Shown: piece after piece, positions 1-32,259 of the stretch
How positions within the stretch are numbered: position 1 is the first letter of the stretch
Layout of the letters: every line of letters begins with the position of its first letter
From: a virus
Length of the DNA stretch: 40,603 nucleotides
Direction: 5' to 3' (one strand)
Virus record (IMG/VR): IMGVR_UViG_3300038802_000018
Location: 1-40,603 of that record
The notes under the pieces: model-generated
Seen by the model: the letters and a program-made list of their open reading frames with translations, nothing else
Databases searched by the model: none
What the model was told of the DNA's origin: nothing
Program-made: the position numbers and the translations under genes

Positions 1-60
1 GGCGGAAACGTGTTTTGTGAGTCGCAATCCATTACTCGACTCAAGAAACACAAACTGCAT
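1..60 (-). CDS. Partial unknown protein (N-terminal 20 residues)
   Basis: An ATG on the minus strand at 60-58 follows a good Shine-Dalgarno (GGAGG, 5 bases before the ATG) and opens a frame that runs without a stop to the window edge. It begins MQFVFLESSNG. It lies downstream of the csrA-like gene in the same direction, with one copy of the 15-bp palindrome between them, so it is probably the next gene of the leftward early operon. Twenty residues are too few to assign a family. Confidence 0.6.
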   Translation of the reverse strand, partial: MQFVFLESSNGLRLTKHVSA

Positions 61-105: not shown

Positions 106-291
106 CTAAACGATGTTGTACTTACGTTGAAAGACTTCTTCCCTGTCGATATCAACGTCATCGCTGGCTTCAAATAATAGGCGAGCTGAAGAGCGTCTCG
201 CTTCGGTCAACTTCACGAGGCAGATAATCTCGCCGTCTTTGTGAATGACAACGTTCTCGTCTTCCTTGCGATGTAGCACCAGTCTGCTCAT
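106..291 (-). CDS. csrA: CsrA/RsmA-family RNA-binding regulator
   Basis: This 61-residue protein has the length and pattern of CsrA. The N-terminal strand LVLHRKEDENVVI matches the family pattern (L-LTR-GE-I-I), and the C-terminus DVDIDREEVFQR matches the family D-V--HREEIY-R. R50 is the equivalent of the RNA-contacting Arg44 of bacterial CsrA. CsrA dimers bind GGA motifs in RNA hairpin loops and usually block ribosome binding. The middle strands (residues 20-40) are more diverged and richer in Arg than in host proteins. The ATG overlaps the stop of the DNA polymerase gene (ATGA), so the two are translationally coupled. A phage copy could reset host carbon metabolism or regulate phage messages; that part is inference. 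Confidence 0.88.
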   Translation of the reverse strand: MSRLVLHRKEDENVVIHKDGEIICLVKLTEARRSSARLLFEASDDVDIDREEVFQRKYNIV

Positions 292-2114
292 TTACTGTAC
301 GCCTTGTCGTAGCCGCCTTCTGCGGCAAGTGGTAAGTCTGGAGCCCAGTCAGGTGGTATGCACATGAGCTCAATAATCTTGTCCATCACTTTGTTAGCAT
401 CTGTTTCGGGAGCGATGCAAACGATTTCGTCATGAACCGTCAGTACAACCGAACCTCCCAGGTCCTGGAGATATGTATGTATGCGCATGAGCCCGTCAGT
501 AATTACGATGCGGGACAATGCTTGCACTATGTTCTCTGTAATTTTTCCGCCCCAAGTAAACTCTGGTTTACCGCGGAAGCTGTACTTGTACTGACTGCCT
601 AGTATCTGCAGGTCTTTGTATGCAAGTCGCATTCCGTTGGGTAGTCCGATTGCATTTTCATGTATTGAAAACACTCGGTACTGAAGCGGCGGATTGTATT
701 TCTGTTTGTCGAGAGTCCACATCAGCATGTTGGTTGCACGTGACCAGAACTCCGGGATACCTGGGTATGTAGTTCTGTATGTACTGACAACGTCATGTGC
801 TTCTTCGCTTGTGAACTCCATCGGTGGGCCCATAGCCCCAGACTTCAATGTAGCTTGGAACTTGTTAGCACCCATGCCGTAGCCAAGACCCAAGATAGCC
901 GTCTTACCTACAAAACGTTCCGTCGGATCGTCATGCTTGTTTATAGGTCGTCCGTATACTTGACTGGCAAACTGACTGTAGACATCGTCATTACGTGCAA
1001 ACGCCTGGAGTAGATCCTGTTCGTCTGCAAGCCATGCAAGCATGCGTGCTTCGATGTTGCTGAGGTCAGCTACATACACTAACCTGCCTTCCGGGGCGAC
1101 CAACGACTTACGTATCTCGCTGCCTCTAGGTAGGTTTTGCATGTTGATTTTTTCTGTACCGCCAAAGCGGCCGGTGTGTGCTGCATAATATCGAAGCGGT
1201 ACGCTGAGTGTTCCGTCTTCGTTACATGCATCCAAGAATCGCTGCGCGCGTGTCTCTGCAATACGTGATTTGACGACGACTCGTGCATCCCAGATGTGCT
1301 GCAGCTCGGGATGTTTGTTGCAGAGCTGCTTGTAGCCTGCATCGTTCTTGCCGAGTGCCGGTATCTGTTCGCCTGTAGACGGAGACTTCTTGGTTGGTGC
1401 GTTGATGTTGTGTTCGTTCTTTAGATATTCGGTAAATTGTTGGTTGCTTGATAATATTTTTCTGTCGATTCCTGATGCTTCGATTAGTTGTTCTGCGTTC
1501 GTTATCTGTTGATCTCGGTACGTGGTCAGTCGTTCACGGTCCACGATCAGCTTTGGCTCGACAAACATCCGTGTTGTTAGATTGATGAGGTCGAGTTCTT
1601 GTTGTGGATAGTCATGCCACAGTTCTTCGAAGATGGCGTGTGTTAGGTCCACGTCTTGTATGCAGTAGCCTGCAATCTGTTCTTCGATGTCCGGTGGTAA
1701 ATCCACAATACCTTTGGCATTAACGAGCTCGTCGCCTTTACGCATGCCGGGATCGTTGGGGAACACACGTTCTGCTACGTCGGCAAGCCGTGCTGATTGA
1801 CCTGGCCACAAGCCTCGGGCCATGGCAGCCGTATCGTAGTAGTAGGCAGGTGTTACTCCGTAGTATTGAGTAAGAATGTATGCGTCAAACATAGCGTTAT
1901 GCGCAATCATCTTAACGGATCCCCAAGGTATGGAGTGTATGTAGTCCTCGACTTCATCTTCGCCATACCAGGTGGCGGTATCGTCTTCAACATAGCGCAC
2001 GCCGACGCCCCAGACTTTGAAGTCAGGGTGTCGTACGTACTCCATAGTTGTCATTTTAGTGAGGCTTAGCTTCGTGTCGAAGTAAGTCTCGAAGTCAATA
2101 CTTAATAGTGTCAT
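288..2114 (-). CDS. Family A DNA polymerase with 3'-5' exonuclease domain
   Basis: About 608 residues from the ATG at 2114, which has GGAAG about 8 bases upstream. The frame is open further upstream, but that part overlaps the preceding gene. The first residues carry the proofreading DEDD motif (IDFET), followed by HNAMFDAY and a third exonuclease motif near YCIQDVDLTHAIF. The C-terminal half has polymerase motif A (YVADLSNIEARMLAW), motif B (GKTAILGLGYGMGANKF) and motif C (VLTVHDEIV, catalytic Asp in HDE). No 5'-3' nuclease domain is present, as in T7-type replicative enzymes. It is expected to be the phage replicase. The stop overlaps csrA by ATGA. Confidence 0.95.
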   Translation of the reverse strand: MTLLSIDFETYFDTKLSLTKMTTMEYVRHPDFKVWGVGVRYVEDDTATWYGEDEVEDYIHSIPWGSVKMIAHNAMFDAYILTQYYGVTPAYYYDTAAMARGLWPGQSARLADVAERVFPNDPGMRKGDELVNAKGIVDLPPDIEEQIAGYCIQDVDLTHAIFEELWHDYPQQELDLINLTTRMFVEPKLIVDRERLTTYRDQQITNAEQLIEASGIDRKILSSNQQFTEYLKNEHNINAPTKKSPSTGEQIPALGKNDAGYKQLCNKHPELQHIWDARVVVKSRIAETRAQRFLDACNEDGTLSVPLRYYAAHTGRFGGTEKINMQNLPRGSEIRKSLVAPEGRLVYVADLSNIEARMLAWLADEQDLLQAFARNDDVYSQFASQVYGRPINKHDDPTERFVGKTAILGLGYGMGANKFQATLKSGAMGPPMEFTSEEAHDVVSTYRTTYPGIPEFWSRATNMLMWTLDKQKYNPPLQYRVFSIHENAIGLPNGMRLAYKDLQILGSQYKYSFRGKPEFTWGGKITENIVQALSRIVITDGLMRIHTYLQDLGGSVVLTVHDEIVCIAPETDANKVMDKIIELMCIPPDWAPDLPLAAEGGYDKAYSK

Positions 2115-2355
2115 CTTCAAGGTCTTCCAGTCTGTTGTCGTAGAGCTGCTCGAGATGAAGCACGTGTTCAATTTCGCGCGCAGTACTTACTTGTTGTTCT
2201 ATTTGTTTGAAGTTTTCTTCAAGCTCTTTGGCAAGACTGGGTTGACGGGTCTTGAGCCACATATAGGTGTAGCTGTATAGCTCGTATTGATTCGGGTTTT
2301 GGCGTCGCTCTTTTTCTTCCTGGCGAGCGAGGTCCATATATTCATCAGCTTTCAT
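2095..2355 (-). CDS. Small unknown protein, charged, helical
   Basis: 86 residues, starting MKADEYMDLARQEE, with a strong AGGAGGAAGTA leader before the ATG at 2355. It is rich in Glu, Gln, Arg and Leu, with a likely coiled coil in the second half (residues about 40-80). It overlaps the DNA polymerase start by 20 bases, so both are read from one message. No family recognised. The position just before the polymerase would suit a replication accessory protein, but nothing in the sequence shows it. Confidence 0.75.
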   Translation of the reverse strand: MKADEYMDLARQEEKERRQNPNQYELYSYTYMWLKTRQPSLAKELEENFKQIEQQVSTAREIEHVLHLEQLYDNRLEDLEDDTIKY

Positions 2356-4603: not shown

Positions 4604-5614
4604 TTAGATAAGTACGTTGGCGTTGTCTTGCGTCCACTTCTGGAACGCTGCTGATTTGACCAAGTCGCGGTCTTTTGCGAGTGAGTCACGGACAAGAACA
4701 ACCTGATACTCAGAGGGCATACGTTTTGCGTAAGCCATGATGTCTTTGAAGTTGTTGTCGTCAGCTCGGGCAGCAAGTGCACCAGATACAGCAAACAAAA
4801 TTGACGGATCGTCAGGGACGCTTGCTGAATGTGGTGATGCCAATAGCTTTTCAAGGTCAGGCATCTTGTCGGCCGTTTGCTTGAACGCAATGAACTCACC
4901 AGCTGGTCCATCGCCAATGATTGAAGCCACACCATAGAACTCGTCGTCAGGTGTGCCGCCCATAAAAGGTAACTTACGGTCAACCATTTCCCAGGCACGC
5001 GGTGTCGGGAATGCATTCTCACGAGAGTCGAGTGAATGCAAAAGTGTCGGCCGGTAACGCAGAAATGAAATAATAGTGGGACTAATATTCCTTTGCATAG
5101 CCCAAGCAGCCCAGTCATCGATGTTGGCCTCGATTTCATAGTGAGCGAAACGGTTCTTCACTGGTGTTGGCATCTCGTGTACAGCTGCACGATCAATGCT
5201 TCGGTTGCCCGCAGCAATGATTGCTGTGCCGGCAGGCAGTGTGTATGTACCAATCTTCTTGTCGAGGATTAGTTGAAGCAGTGCATTCTGTGTAGCTTTA
5301 GGTGCATTGGGCAACTCGTCGACGAGCAGCACGACATTACCTGAGTATGTGGATTCAGGATAATCTTCGGGGACACCGTACCTGGTCTTGTATGTACCGT
5401 CGTCTTGCTCGACAACTTTGAGTCCGCCGCGTACGTCGACTGGGTCAAACAAGTTGGCCCGCAGCTCGAATAGTTTGGCGTTCAAGTCCTCTGCAATCTG
5501 ATAAGCAATCTGGGACTTACCAATACCCGGTGGTCCCCATACCATGGTTGGAATGTTTGCACGTGCGTTGGCACGCAGTTCATTGGATAGTTGTGATGGT
5601 CGAATTGTGCGCAT
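4604..5614 (-). CDS. MoxR-family AAA+ ATPase
   Basis: 336 residues. Walker A is GPPGIGKS at 27-34, Walker B LLVDELPNA with D99-E100, and a sensor-1-like segment is IIAAGNRSIDRA. The region after Walker A carries the MoxR-type substrate loop (DPVDVRGGLKV). MoxR ATPases act as chaperones that insert cofactors or change the shape of partner proteins, and they typically work with vWA-domain proteins such as the one at 2771-3892. The gene begins after a 14-base gap from the 5629-6159 gene and is the first of the three-gene cluster. Confidence 0.92.
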   Translation of the reverse strand: MRTIRPSQLSNELRANARANIPTMVWGPPGIGKSQIAYQIAEDLNAKLFELRANLFDPVDVRGGLKVVEQDDGTYKTRYGVPEDYPESTYSGNVVLLVDELPNAPKATQNALLQLILDKKIGTYTLPAGTAIIAAGNRSIDRAAVHEMPTPVKNRFAHYEIEANIDDWAAWAMQRNISPTIISFLRYRPTLLHSLDSRENAFPTPRAWEMVDRKLPFMGGTPDDEFYGVASIIGDGPAGEFIAFKQTADKMPDLEKLLASPHSASVPDDPSILFAVSGALAARADDNNFKDIMAYAKRMPSEYQVVLVRDSLAKDRDLVKSAAFQKWTQDNANVLI

Positions 5615-8909: not shown

Positions 8910-9680
8910 TTAGCAGGCGAGAGTAGTCTCGACATACTCACGAGCTGCAGCCACAACAGGCTTGACCTCGCGATACTGTTCGTCGATGTACTTCGCTGCG
9001 TTGATGAGACGGAACTTCACATCGTTCTCGATGTAGTAGTTCGGCGTGCCTTTGTATTGCACATAGTCCCAGCAATGCTGATGAACGTCGTACCAGATAC
9101 CTGCAGTTACAGCGGCCTCGAAGACTTTGTCTTGGCGACGCTGAACAAACTCAGGTAGCTCTGCATCGGGGTCGCGGACAGAACCGTACGCACTGATGAA
9201 CAGATGCTTGGCGTATGCCCGCTCAGCAAGTGCAACCTGCACTGCGTTGGAGATGCCCTTCATCACTGGATACTTTTGTGAATCTGGGATACCAGCCAAG
9301 ATAGACTCGTAGTTCTCCTTGAGAACCTTGATGGTCTCGGCTTGTTCTTGGTGAGCCATAGCAACCATGTCTTTGACAGTTGCCATACCCTGTACGTGAT
9401 GCTCCATCACAGCTGCGATGGTAGATTGCTTGGGTATGAGGTACTCACCTTTGCCTTGTGGCCACGCTTTGCCCCAAAGGTTAGTGGCACTGGGCTCGAA
9501 GTCATTGGTCGCCCAGTCAGGATACGTAGCGACTTCAGCACGTGCGGCTGCACCATCAGGGTCAGCCAGTGTGTCGTCGTTAATCATATCGTGAGTTGTC
9601 TCCACGGGTGCGGTGAGCTCTTCACGCTCGCCCTCCAACAGAGGGTCGAAGTGGTTTGTTTTAGCTAGATTAGTCATCAT
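8910..9680 (-). CDS. Unknown protein, 256 residues
   Basis: Begins with two adjacent ATGs (9680 and 9677) after AAGGAGATTT; the second has the better spacing. The first 75 residues are acidic and probably disordered (DTLADPDGAAARAEV). The rest is helical and rich in Ala, Glu and Gln (MEHHVQGMATVKDMVAMAHQ), with Trp, Tyr and His clusters near residue 195 (GIWYDVHQHCWDY). No membrane span and no catalytic motif recognised. It is the largest gene of the stretch between the origin-like region and the small-RNA region, so it is probably made early and in quantity. Confidence 0.8.
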   Translation of the reverse strand: MMTNLAKTNHFDPLLEGEREELTAPVETTHDMINDDTLADPDGAAARAEVATYPDWATNDFEPSATNLWGKAWPQGKGEYLIPKQSTIAAVMEHHVQGMATVKDMVAMAHQEQAETIKVLKENYESILAGIPDSQKYPVMKGISNAVQVALAERAYAKHLFISAYGSVRDPDAELPEFVQRRQDKVFEAAVTAGIWYDVHQHCWDYVQYKGTPNYYIENDVKFRLINAAKYIDEQYREVKPVVAAAREYVETTLAC

Positions 9681-9688
9681 AAATCTCC

Positions 9689-9853
9689 TTAGTTAATGAC
9701 TTTGGTAAATGCAGCTCTGCCCATCAGGCTGCTCAAAAATTGCACGTCGCTCCAAAGGTTGTCTTCAGAAACGCGCTCCGTTTCAGGATTGATACGGATT
9801 GGTGGGATATTTGCCTCAGCAAGTATTTCGTTGAGCCATTCGATGTCATCCAT
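9689..9853 (-). CDS. Small unknown protein, 54 residues
   Basis: The ATG at 9853 follows GGGAGAAAATC and opens a frame beginning MDDIEWLNEILAEANIPP and ending at 9689, 9 bases before the next gene start. It has an acidic N-terminal helix and a short hydrophobic end (SSLMGRAAF). Its leader contains palindrome copy 3 and the repeated leader described at 9856-9920. No family recognised. Confidence 0.7.
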   Translation of the reverse strand: MDDIEWLNEILAEANIPPIRINPETERVSEDNLWSDVQFLSSLMGRAAFTKVIN

Positions 9854-9855
9854 GA

Positions 9856-9920
9856 TTTTCTCCCTTCATTAGTGACACTAATAATTGCCATCACAGCGAG
9901 CTGCGGAGCAGCGAGCTTCA
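9856..9920 (-). repeat. Repeated gene leader, copy A
   Basis: Read leftward it holds GCTCGCTG (twice), GATGGCA, the palindrome ATTAGTGTCACTAAT (9882-9868), then the ribosome site and ATG at 9853. The order CGCTCGCTG, ATGGCA, TTAGTG-like, GTTAACA-like, GGAGG, ATG is repeated at 10403-10470, 11352-11428 and 11929-12001. Confidence 0.55.
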
Positions 9921-10004
9921 GGCTAAGATAAGTAGGTGGAATGCATATGCTAGGAACATCCCGGCTACGAATGGTGTGTATATATTTTCGAAAAAGTCTT
10001 TCAT
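9918..10004 (-). CDS. Tiny membrane protein, 28 residues
   Basis: An optimal TTTAGGAGGTACCA leader precedes the ATG at 10004. The frame (MKDFFENIYTPFVAG then a hydrophobic run to LLILA) ends at 9918. Residues about 11-28 form one membrane helix. The strong ribosome site on so short a frame argues that it is expressed. It resembles in design, not clearly in sequence, the 24-residue membrane peptide at 11277-11351. Possible roles are inner-membrane perturbation or an exclusion function; none is shown. Confidence 0.65.
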   Translation of the reverse strand: MKDFFENIYTPFVAGMFLAYAFHLLILA

Positions 10005-10013
10005 TGGTACCTC

Positions 10014-10397
10014 CTAAACTGCCAATTCCATTTGCTGGTTTCGATATTCGATAACGCGCAGTGGCATGCCAGCCGCCTTTGCAATATCAATCATGTGCTT
10101 ACTGCCACGGGATTCACCATCCCAGAAGACAACACATGCATCTGCATACTCAGCCATCTGTTGATTGCGTTTGTACCCGGCTGACTTGCCATACTTATTC
10201 CATTGGGCAGGCATGACAGTTACTTTGTAGCCACGCTTGTGGGCATACACTTCACCGAAGCGGTCTGCACCACGGGCGTTGCCCGATACAATCTCAATCT
10301 CATCTGGTGATTTGTTGTGAAGCAAGTGGTCAAGCTTGCGATTCATAAGGTCTTGTGACCAGAAGCCACGAGAACCAGCGACGATTAAACGAAACAT
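10014..10397 (-). CDS. SLOG/YspA-like (DUF2493) nucleotide-binding protein
   Basis: About 127 residues from the ATG at 10397 (MFRLIVAGSRGFWSQ), chosen for the AAAGGAG leader. It shows the DUF2493 pattern: N-terminal VAGSRGF, SGNARGADRFGEVYAHKRG, PAQWNKYGKSAGYKRNQQM, and DACVVFWDGESRGSKHMID. SLOG-fold proteins bind nucleotide-derived ligands such as ADP-ribose or NAD-related molecules, and some act in signalling or defence conflict. The gene lies beside the iteron-rich region and carries leader copy B. What it senses here is unknown. Confidence 0.88.
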   Translation of the reverse strand: MFRLIVAGSRGFWSQDLMNRKLDHLLHNKSPDEIEIVSGNARGADRFGEVYAHKRGYKVTVMPAQWNKYGKSAGYKRNQQMAEYADACVVFWDGESRGSKHMIDIAKAAGMPLRVIEYRNQQMELAV

Positions 10398-10402
10398 GTT
10401 AT

Positions 10403-10470
10403 TTACTCCTTTGTTAACAACACTATTCACTGCCACTACAGCGAACCGCGGCGCGGTGAGCGTTGTCTAT
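10403..10470 (-). repeat. Repeated gene leader, copy B
   Basis: Read leftward it has GCTCACCGCGCCGCGG, TTCGCTG, AGTGGCAGTGAATAGTG, TTGTTAACAAAGGAG and then the ATG at 10397. It matches leaders A, C and D in element order. The GC-rich part can form a hairpin (CCGCGCCGCGG). Confidence 0.55.
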
Positions 10471-10949
10471 GAACCGTGGTCCGTGGTCCATGGGTGTGTA
10501 CCACTGTGTACCACTGTGTACCAGCTGTGTACCACTTACGAATCAGGGTTAAGTGTTTGATGTGTATAGATAAAAGGGATGTGTACCACTGTGTACCAGT
10601 TTTAGGGGGGGTCTTTTGATGTTGGAAAAACAAAAACACAAAAGCGTTTTCTAAAACTAAACCGTGGCAATGTGGTACACATGGTACACACGGTCCGTGA
10701 AACGTGATTAGTTGTTCGTGGTCAAGGGTTTAGGTGTGTACCAGAATGTGTACCAAGTGTGTACCACAAACGGTGTATTCGCGGTACACAAGGGACGACG
10801 GACGTGGGACAGAGGACCGTTGAGAACGAACCGAGAACAGTTGTTCGTGGTCATTTGACCGTGGTTCAATGCCCGCAAATAGATGTTCGATGCCCGCAGC
10901 AAGCACGCAAGCCCGCAAGCAAGCAAGCGCCCCCCGCAGAAGGAAGGGG
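10471..10949. other. Origin-like non-coding region with iterons
   Basis: No supported gene lies here. The 8-mer GTGTACCA occurs exactly nine times on the plus strand (starting at 10496, 10506, 10516, 10527, 10581, 10591, 10736, 10748, 10759) and twice inverted (10673-10680, 10682-10689); a near-copy is at 10783. Spacing inside clusters is 10-12 bases, one helical turn. An A/T-rich stretch with a TTTTAG / CTAAAA inverted pair (10598-10660) lies between clusters, like a melting region. CGTGGTC motifs flank it. The right end (10870-10940) has several GCCCGCA and GCAAGC copies. This is the layout of an iteron replication origin, but it could also be a multi-site operator. Confidence 0.6.
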
Positions 10950-10976
10950 ACCCGACCCGCCATTGGCGAGCCGGGT
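10950..10976 (-). terminator. Hairpin terminator after 10983-11177 gene
   Basis: Outer stem ACCCG/CGGGT (10950-10954, 10972-10976) and inner stem CGCC/GGCG (10958-10961, 10965-10968) lie 7 bases past the stop codon. The leftward tail is pyrimidine-rich (CCCCTTCCTTCTG), not a pure T run, so termination may be partial. Confidence 0.45.
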
Positions 10977-10982
10977 TGGAGG

Positions 10983-11177
10983 TTACTCCTTTTCGGTTGC
11001 GACGTGGTCAATGATGATGTCGCTTTGCTGAGCGGACTTACGTTTGTCCAGCTCGTCAAAAGCTTTCATGTCATTGCGTACGTCAGCAACGAAACCCTTT
11101 ACGAAGCCACCAGAACCTTTAGCGACTTTGGTTGTTTTATGTGCTGCGTATGCAGTCACTTTAGATAAAAAACTCAT
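10983..11177 (-). CDS. Small basic/amphipathic unknown protein, 64 residues
   Basis: The ATG at 11177 (MSFLSKVTAYAAHKTTKVAKG) follows TTGGAGGTAAC, which decides the start; the frame is open for another 29 codons with no ribosome site. The N-terminal half is basic and glycine-containing (KGSGGFVKGFVADVRND), the end acidic. No family recognised. It lies immediately before the iteron region, so an origin-related role is possible. Confidence 0.7.
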   Translation of the reverse strand: MSFLSKVTAYAAHKTTKVAKGSGGFVKGFVADVRNDMKAFDELDKRKSAQQSDIIIDHVATEKE

Positions 11178-11276
11178 TGTTACCTCCAATGGTTTGAGTA
11201 AGAAAAGTGAGGGAATGGTCAACGCTCCCTCGGGCGTTCCTGACGCTTTCGTCGGCATCGTCAAGTCGCCGTTGCG

Positions 11277-11351
11277 CTAGATAATTCCGAATGCGGTCAG
11301 CAAAACGAACCACAAACCAGCGCCTAACAAAAAGTCATAGAACCTTGTCAT
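11277..11351 (-). CDS. Tiny membrane protein, 24 residues
   Basis: The ATG at 11351 overlaps the TGA of the 11348-11662 gene and has AAGGAGGTTTACG directly upstream. The product starts MTRFYDFLLGAGLW and is hydrophobic to its end, enough for one membrane helix. Leader copy C precedes it, within the coding sequence of the upstream gene. A strong ribosome site and ATGA overlap support expression. Function unknown. Confidence 0.6.
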   Translation of the reverse strand: MTRFYDFLLGAGLWFVLLTAFGII

Positions 11352-11662
11352 CGTAAACCTCCTTGTTGATAACGCTCATCACTGCCATTCTGGTCAGCGA
11401 GCGGACGCGAGCGGGTTAGGGACCTCATAGCATCGAGTGACTCTATGAGTTGTTGGGGACTGAGTTCCCTCACCGTTACCTCTAGGAATCGGCCAGTTGT
11501 CCAGCCGATAAAGGCGAAGAATGCTGCGCCGCAGATTATGATTCCGGAGCAGATGAGAACCGCGATGTTGTCTGCAGTTACAGCGGCGACAACACCGAGG
11601 ATGAAGTGGACTACTGAGCAGAAGAACCAGAAGCCAGAGAGTATGTTGAATTTATATCGCAT
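11348..11662 (-). CDS. Small membrane protein, 104 residues
   Basis: The ATG at 11662 follows AATAGGAGGTAACC. Residues about 6-55 form two membrane helices (SGFWFFCSVVHFILGVVAAV and a run ending AAFFAFIGW); a cytoplasmic tail of about 45 residues follows. The tail from about residue 78 (SLTRSRPLADQNGSDERYQ) is encoded by repeated leader copy C, so the C-terminus was probably created when that repeat was inserted or duplicated. No family recognised. Confidence 0.7.
   Translation of the reverse strand: MRYKFNILSGFWFFCSVVHFILGVVAAVTADNIAVLICSGIIICGAAFFAFIGWTTGRFLEVTVRELSPQQLIESLDAMRSLTRSRPLADQNGSDERYQQGGLR
11352..11428 (-). repeat. Repeated gene leader, copy C
   Basis: Read leftward: GAGGTCCCTAACCCGCTCGCG, TCCGCTCGCTG, ACCAGAATGGCAGTGATGAG, CGTTATCAACAAGGAGG, then the ATG at 11351. 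It shares with copy D both the leader and the upstream GGGACC / CCCGYTCGC part. It overlaps the 3' end of the 11348-11662 gene. Confidence 0.55.
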
Positions 11663-11671
11663 GGTTACCTC

Positions 11672-11923
11672 CTATTTGAACGATACGGTTTTGATTGCAT
11701 GGTGGCTGAAGAACTCTTTCAGCCGTGGGCCTTCACTGCGGAACATATCTCGCGCGTCGTGAATCTCCATATAGAAGTGAGCGTGTGTGGCTTGCTTGCC
11801 AGCTTGCTCTGCAAACACCTCCAACTGCGCTGTCCCGAGGCGGCCCTCTGGATTGTATGAGCCGACCAGCGGCCACTCAGGACATTCAATCACGACATCC
11901 CATTTGTTTTTTGTATGTGTCAT
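11672..11923 (-). CDS. Unknown protein, 83 residues
   Basis: The ATG at 11923 (MTHTKNKWDVVIECPEWP) is spaced 5 bases from GGAGG; a GTG/ATG further upstream lies too close to the ribosome site. It is a soluble alpha/beta-looking protein with His residues (THAHFYMEIHDARD). No family recognised. It is the first leftward gene beside the divergent control region and carries leader copy D, so it is probably among the first genes transcribed. Confidence 0.72.
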   Translation of the reverse strand: MTHTKNKWDVVIECPEWPLVGSYNPEGRLGTAQLEVFAEQAGKQATHAHFYMEIHDARDMFRSEGPRLKEFFSHHAIKTVSFK

Positions 11924-11928
11924 ATCAA

Positions 11929-12001
11929 CCTCCATCTGTTAATGACACCTACTAATGCCATCTTGACCAGTGAGCAGAGCGAACGGGTATGGGACCCCTA
12001 T
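11929..12001 (-). repeat. Repeated gene leader, copy D
   Basis: Read leftward: GGGGTCCCATACCCGTTCGC, TCTGCTCACTG, GTCAAGATGGCATTAGTAGG, TGTCATTAACAGATGGAGG, then the ATG at 11923. Fourth and outermost copy; it includes a degenerate form of the 15-bp palindrome. Confidence 0.55.
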
Positions 12002-12179
12002 CTATGACTAGGTTCACGTAGGCATTTAGGAAACAAGGTTCCACAGCGCGATCGGGGGCTGGGGTAGCCACTATGAGCAGCGGGGGGAGAATGTCTGAGC
12101 AATTCAGAAATATATTTTCAAATTTTTTTTCTGAAAAAATTTTCTAGACTTTTTTTCCACGGCGTGTAGCACTACATCC
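12002..12179. promoter_or_regulatory. Divergent control region with AT-rich inverted repeat
   Basis: All genes to the left read leftward and all to the right read rightward, so promoters for both arms should lie here. The right half is very AT-rich. An 8-bp inverted repeat (TTCAGAAA at 12103-12110, TTTCTGAA at 12128-12135, 17 bases apart) may be an operator or a hairpin. I see no convincing -35/-10 pair. The left half is G-rich (CGATCGGGGGCTGGGG) with nothing recognisable. Confidence 0.5.
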
Positions 12180-12677
12180 ATGGCTAAACAGACAAAGATT
12201 TGTTTGTATTGCGGTGAGGAAAAACCACTTTCGGACTTCGGCCCGATTGCAAAATCGCAAAACGACACGGACGGCACAGGTAAAGTAAACCGGTGCAATT
12301 CGTGCGTTACTAATAAGCGTATGCAGCGTAACTCCCAGGACTCTACTCACTTCCTAAAAGACCTGTACAGCAAACATAAGTCAGCGGTCGCCAAGAAAGG
12401 TAAATACCAGTGGCGGATCACCGTTGACGACATTATTGATCTTTGGGCAGAACAAGGAGGTAGGTGCGCGCTAAGCGGTGTATACATGACCCACCACCAC
12501 GATCGCGGCGAACGTAAAGAATTTAATGTCAGCATCGACCGTATTCGAAGTACCGAAGACTATACTAATGACAACATCCAGCTGGTTTGCGCCCGCGTAA
12601 ACATAATAAAGAACGATCTGGATGAAGCCTCGCTCTACTGGTGGGTAAAAAATATTTATGATTTTTCTTGTGACTAG
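12180..12677 (+). CDS. HNH endonuclease
   Basis: 165 residues. The N-terminus has a CxxC zinc knuckle (CLYCGEE, with a later CNSC), and the C-terminal half is an HNH domain: GGRCALSGVYM, then NVSIDRIRSTEDYTNDNIQLV with a conserved Asp-Arg-Ile, and a final VNIIKNDL. The metal-binding His lie in THHHDR. HNH nucleases next to the terminase genes assist genome cleavage during packaging in several phages; a homing role is the other option, but the gene stands free and does not interrupt anything. It is the first gene of the rightward arm. No strong ribosome site is visible before its ATG. Confidence 0.82.
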   Translation: MAKQTKICLYCGEEKPLSDFGPIAKSQNDTDGTGKVNRCNSCVTNKRMQRNSQDSTHFLKDLYSKHKSAVAKKGKYQWRITVDDIIDLWAEQGGRCALSGVYMTHHHDRGERKEFNVSIDRIRSTEDYTNDNIQLVCARVNIIKNDLDEASLYWWVKNIYDFSCD

Positions 12678-12679
12678 GT

Positions 12680-12694
12680 ATTAGTTCGACTAAT
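12680..12694. repeat. Palindrome copy 4 (ATTAGT-TCG-ACTAAT)
   Basis: Perfect 6-bp inverted repeat filling the 26-base gap between the HNH gene and the next gene. Confidence 0.75.
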
Positions 12695-12703
12695 AATTAT
12701 GAA

Positions 12704-12973
12704 ATGACCAATGCTGCTCAAGTTATTGCCCTAGATGGCTTAGACGATGCGATCATCGGAACGTGTAACCAGATGGGCGGCGGCGAGGTTATAGCTTACG
12801 ACTACAACAAGGTGGTTGAGTTGTTTGAATCCATGGACTGGGATGAAGAAGAATTTGGAGAATGGTGGGAGCTCATGTCTGAAAACATCCCGCCGGACTC
12901 GTATCCTGTTTTTGTAAATCTAGATGACTCAGTCCGATATGAAATCGCAGCCCAAAGAAACGGATGTCACTGA
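12704..12973 (+). CDS. Acidic unknown protein, 89 residues
   Basis: MTNAAQVIALDGLDDAIIG onward, strongly acidic (MDWDEEEFGEWWEL), ending at 12973 inside the small terminase start. It has no obvious ribosome site; the palindrome at 12680 lies just upstream, so the two may interact in translation control. The pattern IIGTCNQMGGGEVIAYDYNK followed by a short acidic domain occurs in small phage proteins near terminases, but I cannot name a family. Confidence 0.65.
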   Translation: MTNAAQVIALDGLDDAIIGTCNQMGGGEVIAYDYNKVVELFESMDWDEEEFGEWWELMSENIPPDSYPVFVNLDDSVRYEIAAQRNGCH

Positions 12974-13445
12974 CCTCGACCCACATGTCGAGTTCCAGTC
13001 ACATCTGAGATACGCCGGTCTAAATCTAAATGAGCTTACGACTCAACAAGAGACGTATGTACTCGCACGTGTGGGCGGTATGAATATTAAAGCGTCCGCC
13101 CGTGCGGCTGGCTATTCCGAGCGTTCAGCCTATGACATTGAAAAGCGCCCAGCTGTTGCGAAAGCTATTGAGTACTTTCGTGAACAAAATCGTGAAGAAG
13201 TACGGTTTGAACTGGCCGATGCGCATTGGATGTATTTAAAAGCATATAACTCCAGTGCAAATGCAACAGAGATGAAGAACACCACCGACTCTCTTGTGAA
13301 ACTGCACGGCCTGGCGAAAGAAGAAACAAAACCGCTGGTCAACATACAGATAAACGGATCCAAGCAGCTTGAACGTATGACCGACGAAGAGTTGCTCGAG
13401 ATCGCTGGTAAAACAATCGACCACCTGGAGCCCAAAGCTGACTGA
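12924..13445 (+). CDS. Terminase small subunit
   Basis: 173 residues (or 168 from the ATG at 12939). Residues about 30-80 form the typical DNA-binding helix bundle: LTTQQETYVLARV, MNIKASARAAGYSERSAYDIEKRPAVAKAIEYF, with the A-RAAGYS turn of small terminases. The rest is a helical oligomerisation region (DSLVKLHGLAKEETKP) and an acidic tail that should contact the large subunit. It overlaps the upstream gene by 50 bases and directly precedes the large terminase. Confidence 0.85.
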   Translation: MTQSDMKSQPKETDVTDLDPHVEFQSHLRYAGLNLNELTTQQETYVLARVGGMNIKASARAAGYSERSAYDIEKRPAVAKAIEYFREQNREEVRFELADAHWMYLKAYNSSANATEMKNTTDSLVKLHGLAKEETKPLVNIQINGSKQLERMTDEELLEIAGKTIDHLEPKAD

Positions 13446-13530: not shown

Positions 13531-15084
13531 GTGGCTGATATGCAGGACGCCATGCCGGACCCTGACCAGCCCACGCCCCAAGAAGTTGAACAACGGACCA
13601 CGGCCGAAGAACTAGCGAAACAGGAGCTTGCATCACGGTTCCTGACTCGTCGTCGGTTGTTACCGTTCATCGAGCGAAACAATCCTGACTATATGGCGGG
13701 ATGGGTACATAAAGACATATGCCAACGGCTCGAGAAGTTCAGTGAGGCTGTCGTAAATAAAGAAAGCCCTCGGCTGATTTTGCAGATGCCGCCCCGACTA
13801 GGTAAATCGACAATTGCCAGTGTGGGCTTTCCCGCTTGGCACTTGGGTCGTAATCCACAACATGAGTTCATCAGCTGTTCGTACTCTGGAGCGTTGGCCA
13901 TGACCTTCAGCCGTAAAGTACGGCAGACGCTCCGTGAACCGTCGTTCAAGACTACATTCAAAACACGCCTGGATCCTGACTCGCAGTCAGCTGAAGCCTG
14001 GCTAACGTCTGCTGGTGGTGGCTATGTCGCCGCTGGTGTTGGTGGTGGTATCACCGGTAAAGGTGCACATGTATTAGTGATTGACGACCCTGTTAAAAAC
14101 CGCGAGGACGCAGAGTCGCAAAATAACCGTGAGAGCACTTGGGACTGGTACACCTCCACCGCGTATACACGTCTCGCACCCGGCGGAGGGATTCTTGTAA
14201 TCATGACCCGCTGGCACGACGACGATTTGGTTGGCCGACTTTTGAAGAACATGTCTGAAGGTGGCGACGAATGGGAAGTTGTGAAATACCCCGCTATCGC
14301 GGAAGAGGACGAAGAGTTTCGTCGCCAAGGGGAAGCACTTCATCCAGAGCGATATGATCTCGATGCACTGGAGCGTATACAACGAGCCGTGGGCCCTAGA
14401 GATTGGTCCGCGTTGTATCAGCAGAATCCAGTTGCAGATGACGGCGATTACTTTACAAGGGATATGATTCAGTACTACGACAGAGAGGATATCGATCAAG
14501 ATCGACTGCGTTATTACTGTGCATGGGACTTAGCCATAGGAAAGCGAGATAGAAATGACTACTCAGTTGGTATGGTGGTTGGTATTGACGAGTACGATAA
14601 TCTATTCGTTGTCGATGTCATCCGCGGTCGGTTCGACGGTTTTGAGCTTGTCGAACGGATTTTAGACTGTTATGAATTATGGAGGCCCTCGATTATTGGA
14701 ATCGAAAAGGGCCACATCGAGATGGCGCTTGGCCCGTTCCTAGAAAAGCGAACGCGCGAGCGAGGTCTCAATGAGGCTTACTTCAAGGATTTGAAAGTAG
14801 GTCGCCGCGATAAGGAAGCTCGTGCTCGAGCTATTCAAGGTCGTATGCAGCAGGGAATGGTGTTCTTGCCGCGTAACGAAGTATTTACTGGCCCGTTGGT
14901 GGCAGAGCTTTTGCGTTTCCCCAATGGTGTCCACGATGACCAAGTTGATGCGTTGGCATGGATTGGATTGATGATGACGGAGTTTTCTACATTCCACGAA
15001 CGTATTGTTGAGCCGCCAAGTTGGAGAGACAAACTCCGCTATCTTGGCAAAGAAGTGAAAATTAAGTCAGCGATGAGTGCGTGA
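13531..15084 (+). CDS. Terminase large subunit (packaging ATPase-nuclease)
   Basis: 517 residues from a GTG at 13531; an ATG follows at 13540. Walker A is PPRLGKST at 87-94, Walker B VLVIDDPVKN, and coupling segment MTRWHDDDL. The nuclease domain has CAWDLAIGKRDRNDYS (first catalytic Asp), IGIEKG and the late HDDQVDALAW. It translocates DNA into the prohead and cuts it. The frame is open upstream of the GTG and encodes another two-knuckle zinc ribbon (ECRRC ... CAYC), so the true start is probably upstream, perhaps CTG at 13438, which has GGAG 7 bases before it. Confidence 0.95.
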   Translation: MADMQDAMPDPDQPTPQEVEQRTTAEELAKQELASRFLTRRRLLPFIERNNPDYMAGWVHKDICQRLEKFSEAVVNKESPRLILQMPPRLGKSTIASVGFPAWHLGRNPQHEFISCSYSGALAMTFSRKVRQTLREPSFKTTFKTRLDPDSQSAEAWLTSAGGGYVAAGVGGGITGKGAHVLVIDDPVKNREDAESQNNRESTWDWYTSTAYTRLAPGGGILVIMTRWHDDDLVGRLLKNMSEGGDEWEVVKYPAIAEEDEEFRRQGEALHPERYDLDALERIQRAVGPRDWSALYQQNPVADDGDYFTRDMIQYYDREDIDQDRLRYYCAWDLAIGKRDRNDYSVGMVVGIDEYDNLFVVDVIRGRFDGFELVERILDCYELWRPSIIGIEKGHIEMALGPFLEKRTRERGLNEAYFKDLKVGRRDKEARARAIQGRMQQGMVFLPRNEVFTGPLVAELLRFPNGVHDDQVDALAWIGLMMTEFSTFHERIVEPPSWRDKLRYLGKEVKIKSAMSA

Positions 15085-15085
15085 T

Positions 15086-17200
15086 ATGGCAACACATAGT
15101 AAGAAGCCCAGACTATCCCCCGGTGAAGAAGATAAATTAGCGCACGATCAGTGGGAACGATACACCCGAGCCCGAGATCATGGTCACATTGACTATATTG
15201 ATATGGCTAAGAAGTGCGACGCTTTCTATCAGGGCGAACAATGGGATGCTATGGATGTTGCCAATCTTGATGCAGAAGGCCGCCCCGCCCTCACGATTAA
15301 TACCATTCTACCTACTGTAAATACTGTTCTTGGCGAGCAGTCCAACCGACGTGCAGATATAAAGTTTAAACCTCGTCGTGGTGGGTCAGAAGATGTTGCG
15401 CATACCCTAACAAAGTTGTACATGCAGATTGCAGATAACAATAAGCTCGATTGGGTTGAGCAGCAGGTTTTTTCCGACGGTTTGATTATGGATGGCCGTG
15501 GATACTTCGATGCAAGAATGGATTTCAGCGATCACGTAGAAGGCGAAGTGCGGATCAGAGCCCTCGACCCACTAGACGTTGTTATTGACCCTGACGCCAA
15601 GGACTACGACCCCAAGACGTGGAACGAGTTCTTCTATACTCGCTGGATGACGCTCGATGACATCGAGGAAATGTACGGACAAGAACAAGCGGACCGTCTT
15701 CGGTTTATTGCCGAGAACGGTAACAGCTTCGGTCGGGATTCTGTCGAATACAGTGAAACACGCTACGGCGACCTTGATGAGTCTGATGATTATCTGGGCA
15801 CCGCCATTCCTGGAGAAGATGAATATCGTACTGTCAAGGCCTTACGTGTCATTGAGCGCCAGCATCGTAAAATCACTCGCGTCGATTGTTTTGTAGACCC
15901 AAACACCGGCGACCAACGCGACGTACCCGAGGCGTGGTCTGACCGTAAGACAAAGAAGTTCGCCAAAGACTACGGCCTGAACGTTATTTCAAAAACTAAA
16001 AAGAAAGTTCGTTGGACTGTTACTTGCGATAAGGTCGTACTCCATGACGATTGGTCACCTTACGCAGACTTTACTATTGTCCCGTTCTTCGCCTATTTCC
16101 GGCGCGGACGCCCGTTCGGTATGGTGCGCAACCTGCTCTCCCCTCAAGAGCAACTGAACAAAATCGCCTCTCAAGAGCTGCACATTGTAAACACCACCGC
16201 TAACAGTGGTTGGGTCGTCGAGTCTGGTTCACTGACGAATATGCAGGCTGAAGATTTAGAGGAACACGGGGCAGAGACCGGTTTGGTGCTGGAGTACAAT
16301 CGTGGATCATCTCCTCCCTCCAAGATCCAACCTAACCAGATACCAACCGGTCTCGACCGTATTAGTCAGAAAGCCGCTGCGAACATCAAAGCTATATCGG
16401 GTATTAACGATTCCATGCTCGGCACGGACGGCGCCGAGGTCTCAGGCATAGCGATTCAGGCTAAACAGAATCGTGGCGTGATTATGATTCAAGTTCCGCT
16501 AGACAACCTGCGGAAGACCCGACAGTACCTAGCCGAGAAAATCCTAAATCTTATCCAAACGTTTTACACCGAGGAAAGAATTATTAGAATTACTAATGAT
16601 GACGACCCGATGGAGCCCCGCGAGGAGATGATTATTAACGAAATGACGGCTTCTGGTGAAATTATCAATGATTTGACTATTGGTGAGTACGATGTGGTGG
16701 TTGCTACGCAGCCTGCACGTGATTCATTTGATGAAGTTCAGTTTGCAGAAGCTCTAGCACTTCGCCAGGCCGGTGTTGCTGTACCAGATGATGCGATTGT
16801 TCAGTACTCGCATCTCGCCAAGAAAGCAGAATTGGCCGCTAGACTTCGTCAAGACCCGTCTGAAGAGCAGATGCAAATCATGCAGATGCAGCAACAGCTC
16901 GCTATGCAAGAAGCTCAGCTACAAGTTGCCAAACTTGAGGCTGAAATACGCAAACTTCAATCTGACGCAGCCGTAAATCTCGCTAAAACACAGGATATCG
17001 CGGACGTTCAGCCGCAGTTGAAAGTGGCAGAGCTACAGCAAGAGCTGCAAATGGCGCAAGAAAACCTGCAATTGCGGCGTGAACTTGCAAATCTAACGAG
17101 TAGAACTCGACAAACACAGGCTCAAACAACCGCAGCGGCAAAATTGGCCACCACTGCGATGAACACAGCAGCTAAAAACGGCCAAAACACGCAAAATTAG
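15086..17200 (+). CDS. Portal protein (P22-like)
   Basis: 704 residues from the ATG at 15086, 1 base after the terminase stop. It shows the P22-type portal pattern: N-terminal AHDQWERYTRARDHGHIDYIDM, YQGEQWDAMDVANLDAEGRPALTINTI, LDPLDVVIDPDAKDYDP, and FGMVRNLLSPQEQLNKIASQEL. The C-terminal 130 residues are a long Gln/Leu coiled coil (MQMQQQLAMQEAQLQVAKLE), which corresponds to the barrel of P22-like portals. The dodecamer forms the DNA entry channel at one capsid vertex. Confidence 0.93.
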   Translation: MATHSKKPRLSPGEEDKLAHDQWERYTRARDHGHIDYIDMAKKCDAFYQGEQWDAMDVANLDAEGRPALTINTILPTVNTVLGEQSNRRADIKFKPRRGGSEDVAHTLTKLYMQIADNNKLDWVEQQVFSDGLIMDGRGYFDARMDFSDHVEGEVRIRALDPLDVVIDPDAKDYDPKTWNEFFYTRWMTLDDIEEMYGQEQADRLRFIAENGNSFGRDSVEYSETRYGDLDESDDYLGTAIPGEDEYRTVKALRVIERQHRKITRVDCFVDPNTGDQRDVPEAWSDRKTKKFAKDYGLNVISKTKKKVRWTVTCDKVVLHDDWSPYADFTIVPFFAYFRRGRPFGMVRNLLSPQEQLNKIASQELHIVNTTANSGWVVESGSLTNMQAEDLEEHGAETGLVLEYNRGSSPPSKIQPNQIPTGLDRISQKAAANIKAISGINDSMLGTDGAEVSGIAIQAKQNRGVIMIQVPLDNLRKTRQYLAEKILNLIQTFYTEERIIRITNDDDPMEPREEMIINEMTASGEIINDLTIGEYDVVVATQPARDSFDEVQFAEALALRQAGVAVPDDAIVQYSHLAKKAELAARLRQDPSEEQMQIMQMQQQLAMQEAQLQVAKLEAEIRKLQSDAAVNLAKTQDIADVQPQLKVAELQQELQMAQENLQLRRELANLTSRTRQTQAQTTAAAKLATTAMNTAAKNGQNTQN

Positions 17201-17209
17201 GAGTGCGTA

Positions 17210-18265
17210 ATGAGTGAAGACATGGAAAAACAGGAAGCGACCGAGGAAAAAGCGCTTACTTTTGACGTTATGCCGGGGGCAGAGCCTCTGGAAGCACCAG
17301 AAAATGTAGATTTGAGTTTCCCAGCGCCTGAGCCGGAGTCGGAAAAAGCTGAAGAATCGGAAGAAACCGAAGAAACATCCGCCGAATCGGAAGAAGTAGA
17401 AGAAACTGCAGACGCCGAACCTGAAACAGACGGCGATGACGACGATGATACTGAACCTGATGAGGGTACACCCGAAGAGGAGCCAGAATCGCAGGAAGAA
17501 ACTGAGGAAGAGCTGCCGCTTGCGGCTGAAAAAGCGGAACCAGAGGCGAAAAGCCCAATGGTGCCCAAGTCTCGCCTCGATGAAGTGCTAGCTAAACAGA
17601 AAGCACTGCAAAAACAGGTGGAAGAAATGAAGGCAGCAGCCGAAAAACCCGCCGAAGCACCAGAGGAGTACGATTTTGATGCCAAAGAAATCGAATACCA
17701 ACAACTCGTTCTCGACGGAGAAGCTGAAAAAGCTGTCGCGCTTCGTAAAGAAATACGTGGAGCTGAGAAAGCACAGATTGAGTGGGAAATGGAGCAGAAG
17801 ATGGGACAGACTGTCCAGCAATCTGCCCAAGCTACAGCTTTGCAACAGGCTGCAGCAGAAATGGAAGCAGCTTACCCAGTATTTGATCAGAACTCTCCAG
17901 ACTTTAACCAAGAGTACACAGATGAAGTTGTCGAACTTCGCGACGCGTTCATTATTAAAGGTTATGACGCCGTTGACGCTTTGGGTCGAGCAGTTAAGTA
18001 CGTGGTTAAGGACCGTAATCTCGACGCTGCAGGGGAAGCTGAACAGAAACCAGCCTTAGCCGCGGCATCGCCAGAACAATCGGCTAAAAAGAAAGCCAAT
18101 GTAGCTAAGAAACTGAAAGCAGCGGAATCACAGCCACCTGAATTGGAAGGTGAAGGCTCATCTTCGCGCGGCGAGAACGTAGTCGACTTTACCGGAATGT
18201 CAGAAGAAGAGTTTGATGCTCTTCCTGAGGCTACTCTTCGTAGACTGAGAGGAGACATCGTCTGA
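17210..18265 (+). CDS. Acidic scaffold-like protein
   Basis: 351 residues. The first 110 residues are almost entirely Glu, Asp, Ser, Pro and Thr (TDGDDDDDTEPDEG), and therefore disordered. Residues 120-240 form a coiled coil (LDEVLAKQKALQKQVEEM), then a helical part (FIIKGYDAVDALGRAVKYVV) and a short C-terminal helix-turn-helix-like end (MSEEEFDALPEATLRRLRGDIV), the usual coat-binding end of scaffolds. Position between portal and capsid genes fits a scaffolding protein. A GAG-rich ribosome site (TAGGAGTGCGTA) precedes the ATG. Confidence 0.85.
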   Translation: MSEDMEKQEATEEKALTFDVMPGAEPLEAPENVDLSFPAPEPESEKAEESEETEETSAESEEVEETADAEPETDGDDDDDTEPDEGTPEEEPESQEETEEELPLAAEKAEPEAKSPMVPKSRLDEVLAKQKALQKQVEEMKAAAEKPAEAPEEYDFDAKEIEYQQLVLDGEAEKAVALRKEIRGAEKAQIEWEMEQKMGQTVQQSAQATALQQAAAEMEAAYPVFDQNSPDFNQEYTDEVVELRDAFIIKGYDAVDALGRAVKYVVKDRNLDAAGEAEQKPALAAASPEQSAKKKANVAKKLKAAESQPPELEGEGSSSRGENVVDFTGMSEEEFDALPEATLRRLRGDIV

Positions 18266-23055: not shown

Positions 23056-24978
23056 ATGAGTTTTTTAGCGGGTTTTCAAGCGGTACAACAAGCGGGTCTC
23101 AACGCTCAAAGGATTAAAGGGCAAAGAATATCCAACGAGGCCGCGCAGGCCCAACTTTCTCAATATCAGTCTCAAGAGGTTATGCAAGTCGGCAATAGTT
23201 TAGGTTACGTGAGAGCTGACAATACTTTTGATCGTGAGCTGTGGCAGAGCCATATAGAAAGCGATGATAAAACCTTACGTGATAAAGCCTCTTTTTTTGG
23301 TGCCGCGCTGGCTAACCGGGTGCACGGAAACGAACAATTTTTAGCTACAGACGTGAAAAAACTAAAAGATGGAAGTTTTGTAACGACTGGTCAAAACCTT
23401 CAGACAGGTAAACCTGGCGTTATCACTGATAATGCTACTACAGACCCTGACGACACCGTGACAAGATTTGGTTCTCAAGAAGCAGGAAACCTAATGGATC
23501 TGATTTACTCTACTAAAATTAGACCAGACGGCAGTGATCCATTACGTCAGAACCAGATGGCTTTGATAAACGACGCCGAATATATATCCGAAAGCCAAGG
23601 GCGTCCCGATTTTATTCGTAATGCTTATGGTGCCCTGTCTAGGTTACCAGAAGAAGAACGCGAAGAAGCCGCTGGTAGAATACACGCGTTGATTAAAGGG
23701 GAAGAGTATGTGGGGCCGGGCGCAACAACTACTCAGACCCAAGATACAAGTGCATCAGCATCAGAAGCTAGTGATGCCCCTGCTCCAACTCCGACTGATA
23801 GGAACACCGTTATTACACGTATTGAGGACCTTAGAACTCAGTTAGTCGAAGAAACTCCTGGAAAACCAGGAAGAGGACTTACGCCAAATCAGCAAAAAGT
23901 TGCTAATAAAAACAAAGCGACTAATGCACAGATAGACGCAGCCTTCGAAAAATTACCGGAAGTAATCGAGTTAAGGGAAAAAATAGCTGGGCTTGATCTC
24001 CGCTCTGGCGGCACAAAAAGAGCCCAATACCTTAGGGATATTGAAGCTATTAAGAATAACCCCCTTGTTCCTGATGAGATTAATCAGGCAGCATCTAGTC
24101 TGCCAGATGATCCTGAGGAACTGAAAACTACATTACAAAGCAATACTCCTGTCCGGAACCAAGAGTTGATTTCTACAATCGCAAATTACATGCGCAATAA
24201 CAACGTCACTAATATAAACCAACTCAGTGGCCAACCTCTGGCCGTCAAAAAAATGGTTGTCGCAGCGGCTGTTGCAAACATACCGGAAGGTAATTTAAGG
24301 AATCAGACTCTAGTTGCTCTGACGAACTTGATGGAAACAGGTAATCCAGGCACTTCAAGCTTAGATGTTGCTAAATTTGGGCTTGACCAGAAAACGTTTG
24401 GTTTGAGGTACGCTGAGTTACAGAGACAGTTTGGTAATGACACTGATGCTGCTAATAAAGCCGTATCTGAGATATCGACCAATATAGTTAAACCGCTTGT
24501 TGATGATGACGGTAAAATTAGAGCTCTTGATGACCTCGAGGATGGTCAGAGGGCGGAAATTTTGACGACTTACTCTATCTTGACAAGAAACGCTAGAGGT
24601 GCACAAACAAATAGGAGAGCTAATAGACCACCTACACCCGTACAGCTTGCCGCGGAAAAACAACTTCTTGATGCTCTAATACCATTAACAATTAGTAGAG
24701 CCAGAGAAGAAGGCCTCAGTATCTTATTTGAACCACTAGAGTCTCTATTCTCTATACCTCGCGACGACCCTAACTACATACCTGGGTCTATGGCTGATCA
24801 GATTGGTATTGAGAAAGACCGTAACGGTAACGTTACCCGTATTTTCTTTGGTGACCCAAGCGGCGGTAGAACCGAAGATTCTATTTCAGTCAAAGATTTA
24901 CTCAAAGTTATGGATCAAGCGGACATCAATACACTAATCGCAATAGGCGAGAGAAACCAAAGCCAGGCCACTCAGTAG
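23056..24978 (+). CDS. Ejection / internal virion protein C
   Basis: 640 residues. The N-terminal 60 residues are Gln/Ala-rich (AGFQAVQQAGLNAQRIKGQ); an extended Ala/Pro/Thr linker (TSASASEASDAPAPTPTDR) near residue 235 separates an N-terminal from a C-terminal helical half (LPDDPEELKTTLQSN; MVVAAAVANIPEGNLRNQ). No enzyme motif seen. It directly precedes the giant protein and probably forms the internal core or periplasmic channel together with it. Confidence 0.75.
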   Translation: MSFLAGFQAVQQAGLNAQRIKGQRISNEAAQAQLSQYQSQEVMQVGNSLGYVRADNTFDRELWQSHIESDDKTLRDKASFFGAALANRVHGNEQFLATDVKKLKDGSFVTTGQNLQTGKPGVITDNATTDPDDTVTRFGSQEAGNLMDLIYSTKIRPDGSDPLRQNQMALINDAEYISESQGRPDFIRNAYGALSRLPEEEREEAAGRIHALIKGEEYVGPGATTTQTQDTSASASEASDAPAPTPTDRNTVITRIEDLRTQLVEETPGKPGRGLTPNQQKVANKNKATNAQIDAAFEKLPEVIELREKIAGLDLRSGGTKRAQYLRDIEAIKNNPLVPDEINQAASSLPDDPEELKTTLQSNTPVRNQELISTIANYMRNNNVTNINQLSGQPLAVKKMVVAAAVANIPEGNLRNQTLVALTNLMETGNPGTSSLDVAKFGLDQKTFGLRYAELQRQFGNDTDAANKAVSEISTNIVKPLVDDDGKIRALDDLEDGQRAEILTTYSILTRNARGAQTNRRANRPPTPVQLAAEKQLLDALIPLTISRAREEGLSILFEPLESLFSIPRDDPNYIPGSMADQIGIEKDRNGNVTRIFFGDPSGGRTEDSISVKDLLKVMDQADINTLIAIGERNQSQATQ

Positions 24979-24993
24979 GAAAGATTAAGGGCG

Positions 24994-32259
<7,266 letters not shown>

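Follow-up and report, generated by a model that had tools for sequence, protein, structure and literature searches.

A conserved iteron array as the probable replication origin of a group of uncultivated phages

In satellite phage P4, the alpha protein acts as primase and helicase and also binds iterons; the P4 origin differs in word and layout from the array described herein. Nitratiruptor phage NrS-1 (AB746912) carries 11 copies of GTGTAAC at 17062-17377, directly past its PrimPol gene (14895-17051). The literature on this enzyme states that it recognizes 5'-TTTGGTTA-3' (PMC8718748) and suggests that this 8-nt recognition site may serve as origin (PMC7102993, PMC8718748). The sequence TTTGGTTA is found once in AB746912, on the minus strand at 17198, within an iteron; this exact count differs from the published one. 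The initiators Rep of staphylococcal pathogenicity islands (SaPI) and Cch2 of SCCmec, self-loading as primase-helicase or helicase, use their C-terminal domain to read iterons, in two assemblies (PMC7581432). The nearest cultivated relatives of the phage under study, judged by terminase, polymerase, and PrimPol, are the Pseudomonas phages KPP25 (Kochitakasuvirus) and phiR18, together with phiA008. KPP25, whose PrimPol is 29% identical, exhibits eight TGTTACGA at 26394-26825 (L229) in a noncoding gap (26218-26895). A second KPP25 array (L230), with five TGTTACGA at 58257-58542, lies 32 kb away and has a partly identical layout. The KPP25 arrays are noted in the present analysis only.

The DNA analyzed herein (the window) is a virus record of 40,603 bases. 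Its first and last 3 kb have no 14-mer in common, and a megablast search with its first 25 kb against 50,697 phage records gave no match. The following features are referred to throughout.

1-60, minus strand: first 20 codons of the PrimPol gene, cut by the record end, the candidate initiator (by match to relatives)
106-291, minus strand: CsrA-family protein (PF02599, 1.2e-08), between the DNA polymerase and PrimPol genes
288-2171, minus strand: family A DNA polymerase (PF00476, 1.9e-35)
4604-5614, minus strand: MoxR-like AAA ATPase, which anchors the replication arm
8910-9680, minus strand: p244 homologue (26-27% to G002 and L102) with no family, the next conserved gene on the replication side of the array
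10472-10489, plus strand: AACCGTGGTCCGTGGTCC, resembling the GACCGTGGACCGTGG repeat, outside the blocks in the window
10496-10534, plus strand: outer iteron block of four GTGTACCA with 10-11 bp spacing (exact word match)
10581-10598, plus strand: inner GTGTACCA pair with 10 bp spacing (exact word match)
10599-10672, no strand: central spacer of 63% A+T that separates the innermost divergent sites, a candidate unwinding region by its inferred role
10673-10689, minus strand: inner inverted GTGTACCA pair with 9 bp spacing (exact word match)
10736-10766, plus strand: outer block of three GTGTACCA with 12 and 11 bp spacing (exact word match)
10783-10789, minus strand: twelfth site, the 7 bases GTGTACC (some relatives have 12 exact sites)
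12924-13445, plus strand: terminase small subunit, first anchor of the structural arm

The window contains 13 exact copies of GTGTACCA, where 0.79 are expected, and none of 100 dinucleotide shuffles reached this number. Eleven of them cluster at 10496-10766, in an array of about 290 bases. The first-pass annotation had described this cluster as 11 exact 8-mers, nine direct and two inverted, with spacings of 10, 10, and 11; 10; 9 in the inverted pair; and 12 and 11 bases; all of these are found, starting at 10496, 10506, 10516, 10527, 10581, 10591, 10736, 10748, and 10759 on the plus strand and at 10673 and 10682 on the minus strand. In L066, L075, and L092, which are close relatives, the array contains 12 exact sites. 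The A/T-rich stretch that had been placed between the clusters is moderate, with 62-72% in 40-base windows over 10600-10679 as opposed to 53% window-wide. Mechanical ORFs overlap the array, two of which match only L066, L075, and L092 among the array-bearing loci; hence, noncoding, as first supposed, is the better reading of the array. An Rfam search of 9000-13000 gave no match. Outside the array, at 9885, 10428, and 11380, the window contains similar stretches, in which CACTGCCA or TTGCCATCAC is followed by CAGCGA-like words. They precede several small leftward genes and appear to be a repeated regulatory or start-region element.

Compared with NrS-1, the relatives of the window have homologous helicase and C-terminal PrimPol domains, and there are likewise about a dozen short noncoding repeats, which in NrS-1 read GTGTAAC(CA) and are very similar to GTGTACCA. 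The words differ by one inserted base (GTGTAACCA in NrS-1), the NrS-1 array adjoins its PrimPol gene whereas that of the window is about 10 kb distant, and the primase half is too diverged for tblastn, which matches query residues 489-780 only. KPP25 likewise has noncoding iteron arrays, but with the word TGTTACGA, as two arrays, and in a 64-kb genome. In phiA008 a homologous PrimPol (31%) is present and no array was found, which counts against a general rule. With SaPI Rep and Cch2 the window and its relatives have in common an array of short iterons in noncoding DNA. Those origins lie directly downstream of the initiator gene, unlike the array of the window, which is distant from PrimPol; moreover, the islands are satellites and the window is from a phage. 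The array would work like the SaPI Rep and Cch2 origins but is classed apart, since it does not adjoin the initiator gene and its binding by the PrimPol C-terminal domain is a prediction.

Viral contigs were first scanned with the word, two sites at a distance of 10 bases being required, which yielded 65 loci. At least three sites within 400 bp occur in 48 of these, and the remaining 17 were treated as chance. Most of the 48 array loci have terminase, portal, polymerase, or MoxR homologues in common with the window. Wherever both sides are present, the array is located between a structural arm (HNH, TerS, TerL) and a replication arm (p244, MoxR, vWA, polymerase, CsrA-like, PrimPol). The CsrA-family homologues keep the same place in G009, G002, and L079. 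As the first scan used the word itself, it was repeated by PrimPol homology without the word, which gave 80 loci; 20 contigs were word-searched and 16 examined (G084 and G075 in part). An array of 7-12 copies lies at the same place in 15 of the 16 long contigs selected by PrimPol only, and the sixteenth, G070, starts past the array position. In G072 a different repeat elsewhere is denser than the array. The GTGTACCA array itself is included in only 2 of the 80 PrimPol loci because most stop before the region or use another word. Upstream of MoxR, the survey covered 94 distinct stretches that had been located through the word or through a protein: 83 contain at least five copies of a family word, three contain another repeat, and eight, several of them short, contain no repeat. 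The array is an origin-like element common to a large group of uncultivated phages, for which a nonexhaustive literature search found no description of such arrays.

Some further loci were observed alongside. L097, a 48-kb record without a PrimPol match, contains at 9016-9074 a 10-bp tandem of five GTGTACCA together with an inverted copy. L123 is an otherwise unrelated 8-kb contig with genes for terminase small subunit, prohead protease, and capsid. Eight exact GTGTACCA lie at 969-1301, directly past its own DUF5906 gene; the protein encoded by the latter aligns to PrimPol at 23 bits only and would represent a parallel, not proof. The 16 copies of a TGCAACC word in L224 form a run of short similar units and were set aside. 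In all 14 relatives checked (G067 at 58986, G069 at 12231, G077 at 2436 and 2453, G009 at 23441 and 23463, and others), the 11-mer CTACTATCATC flanks the array at a short distance on its terminase side. The window lacks this 11-mer, which is possibly a further origin element.

The word shifts in concert by lineage, all sites of an array being rewritten. Read on the strand starting with TGG, it is TGGTACAC in the window (the other strand of GTGTACCA), G002, and G073; TGGTACA, the last base of which is less fixed, in G009, G066, and G084; TGGTACAG in G067, G068, and G076; TGGAACAT in G069 and G071; and TGGAACCA in G072, G074, G075, and G077-G080. L004 uses TGCTACA and L217 uses TGTAACA. Despite the different words, the site offsets are nearly constant between phages. 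The window, when turned, reads 0< 24> 35> 47> 100< 109<, then 192> 202> 256> 267> 277> 287>, and G069 reads 0< 9< 32> 45> 99< 107<, then 190> 199> 241< 264> 274> 283>. In 18 of 21 loci, 80-92 bp separate the innermost divergent sites; G072, G073, and G079 each have an inexact inner site and a largest gap of 147-155. Of the 18 loci with the spacer, 16 have one that exceeds the genome in A/T content, often only slightly, and two do not. In many relatives the GACCGTGGACCGTGG-like repeat sits inside this spacer, whereas the similar copy of the window is positioned outside the blocks at 10472. That the sites are rewritten while the layout is kept suggests that the phage's own primase-helicase reads the iterons.

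The first-pass annotation had offered two guesses for the initiator, a protein encoded outside the window or the small protein at 10983-11177. The former fits the PrimPol gene, which runs off the left end, where the window encodes MQFVFLESSNGLRLTKHVSA from position 60 on the minus strand, in agreement in place and start with the 825-aa PrimPol of G009. The small protein is not a convincing initiator: it has no Pfam family and one weak PHROG match of unknown function, and among the array-bearing loci its relatives occur in L066, L075, and L092 only. No Rep-type initiator was found among the proteins scanned (10 window proteins and further sets of 5 and 10). The distance between array and PrimPol is similarly large in a relative, with the array at 10.5 kb and PrimPol at position 60 in the window, and at 23.5 and 35.4 kb, respectively, in G009.

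All 20 PrimPol family members examined contain DUF5906, and 15 of them a VapE-like match. The PrimPols of the relatives match the helicase region of NrS-1 PrimPol at 1.2e-29 (6k9e) and in Foldseek at 2.1e-09. D91, D93, S145, and H147, which we take to be the primase residues of the primase-polymerase (AEP) domain, are invariant in the 20 PrimPols, and the Foldseek match to S-2L PrimPol is at 0.025 only. The full PrimPol model is poor overall (pLDDT 61, pTM 0.39). The C-terminal 138 residues model better (pLDDT 78.6, pTM 0.75) and show the winged-helix order of helices and strands; a Pfam search of this domain gave nothing firm. Its best structural match is NrS-1 residues 622-718 (Z 7.2 over 90 residues, 3.3 Å), and the next, unrelated rows have Z 3.9, with Z 7 itself being middling.

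Cumulative GC skew had been named as a check for an origin. Beyond 5 kb, the G-C minimum of the window lies at 10446 and the A-T minimum at 10623, both at the array, and in seven of seven long relatives (read as circles and sampled every 500 bases) the G-C minimum is within 1.2 kb of the array. As gene direction turns at nearly the same place, the skew minima lend weak support only. The same turn bears on the idea that the array is an operator, by which a phage regulator would switch early and late transcription. The array does lie between two divergent gene blocks; in the window, though, the turn (11935-12180) is about 1.2 kb from the array, which sits behind three small same-strand genes, and for an operator a fixed 290-bp layout with a constant spacer and the NrS-1 motif inside an iteron would be unexpected. 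An operator is hence improbable.

Ten proteins, with 4450 columns in all, were scanned for positions that vary with the word and separate TGGTAC from TGGAAC phages. HNH (16 rows) as well as L217 and L004, whose word has other changes, were left out. Overlapping or near-identical contigs were merged into groups, in which the PrimPol and the array compared may stem from two near-identical contigs, and the word of G073 was assigned by hand (four exact TGGTACA in the group table; eight GGTACAC). Eleven columns separate the two classes without overlap. PrimPol 787 ranks first (24 of 24), with Ala in 12 TGGTAC phages and Ile in 11 plus Val in one of the TGGAAC phages; PrimPol 262 ranks second, and nine further columns also separate the classes. 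In the model, residue 787 would belong to the wing, in the loop that leads into its last strand. The PrimPol of G073 sits among those of TGGAAC phages (nearest L323, 79%), yet G073 has TGGTACAC and Ala787. Mapped on the PrimPol tree, the word requires four changes, and its fourth base and residue 787 require two each, which gives two independent pairs (sign test p 0.5); that residue 787 follows the word is thus a hint, not proof. L362, found after the scan, agrees, with Ile787 and seven TGGAAC within about 300 bp as opposed to one TGGTAC. In the database this contig is assigned to a Candidatus Neomarinimicrobiota MAG (PBPT01000002.1), which is either a host hint or a binning error. Seven long PrimPols (L352-L358), all with Ile or Val, come for the most part from groups that the count already includes and do not provide independent cases.

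The array could also be an origin whose iterons are bound not by PrimPol but by p244, the MoxR ATPase, or an unseen phage protein, which then loads PrimPol. On the replication side, no conserved genes are closer to the array than p244 and MoxR, and column 221 of MoxR likewise separates the TGGTAC and TGGAAC phages, G073 and L321 included. Nevertheless, MoxR 221 is highly variable within a class (entropy 1.91 versus 0.21 for PrimPol 787), p244 has no separating column in 32 sequences, and the NrS-1 repeats adjoin its PrimPol gene; a separate loader is unlikely, if less so than an operator. Least probable is that the terminase small subunit binds the array as a packaging start (pac or cos). The array is near the terminase genes, and besides the window six of the 48 array loci (L060, L067, L082, L086, L106, and L116) end at most 100 bp from the array or inside it, but repeats or strain variation can also break assemblies, and long contigs run through the array. 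Moreover, no TerS column follows the word in 28 sequences, and the TerS of L323 (TGGAACC) is 80-83% identical to those of G073 and L321 (TGGTACA).

The array is therefore best read as first proposed, namely as an iteron replication origin: its place and layout are conserved across diverged phages, and from sequence comparison it is probably the phage replication origin. The whole explanation, to which we assign a probability of roughly 0.7, is that the array is an origin with initiator sites, bound and fired by a PrimPol of the NrS-1 kind via its winged helix. Herein, two blocks of 8-base iterons flank the central spacer. The phage PrimPol, consisting of a primase-polymerase, a DUF5906 ring helicase, and a C-terminal winged helix, would bind the iterons through the latter, assemble on both blocks, open the spacer, and prime synthesis in what would be a bidirectional start, and the family A DNA polymerase would extend the primed DNA. 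More tentatively, and with somewhat less than even odds, the array and the PrimPol wing may form a switchable origin code, in which the sites are rewritten in step with a few wing residues, creating related phages with incompatible replicons on a fixed scaffold of two blocks and a constant spacer. This code would pair Ala787 with TGGTAC and Ile787 or Val787 with TGGAAC.

Origins of uncultivated phages are seldom located, and comparison alone herein shows where a whole phage group probably has its origin and points to a candidate initiator and a candidate specificity residue. It also provides a link to the PrimPol of NrS-1, whose origin has so far only been suggested. The natural series of words makes it testable how an initiator changes its site when about a dozen copies must shift together.
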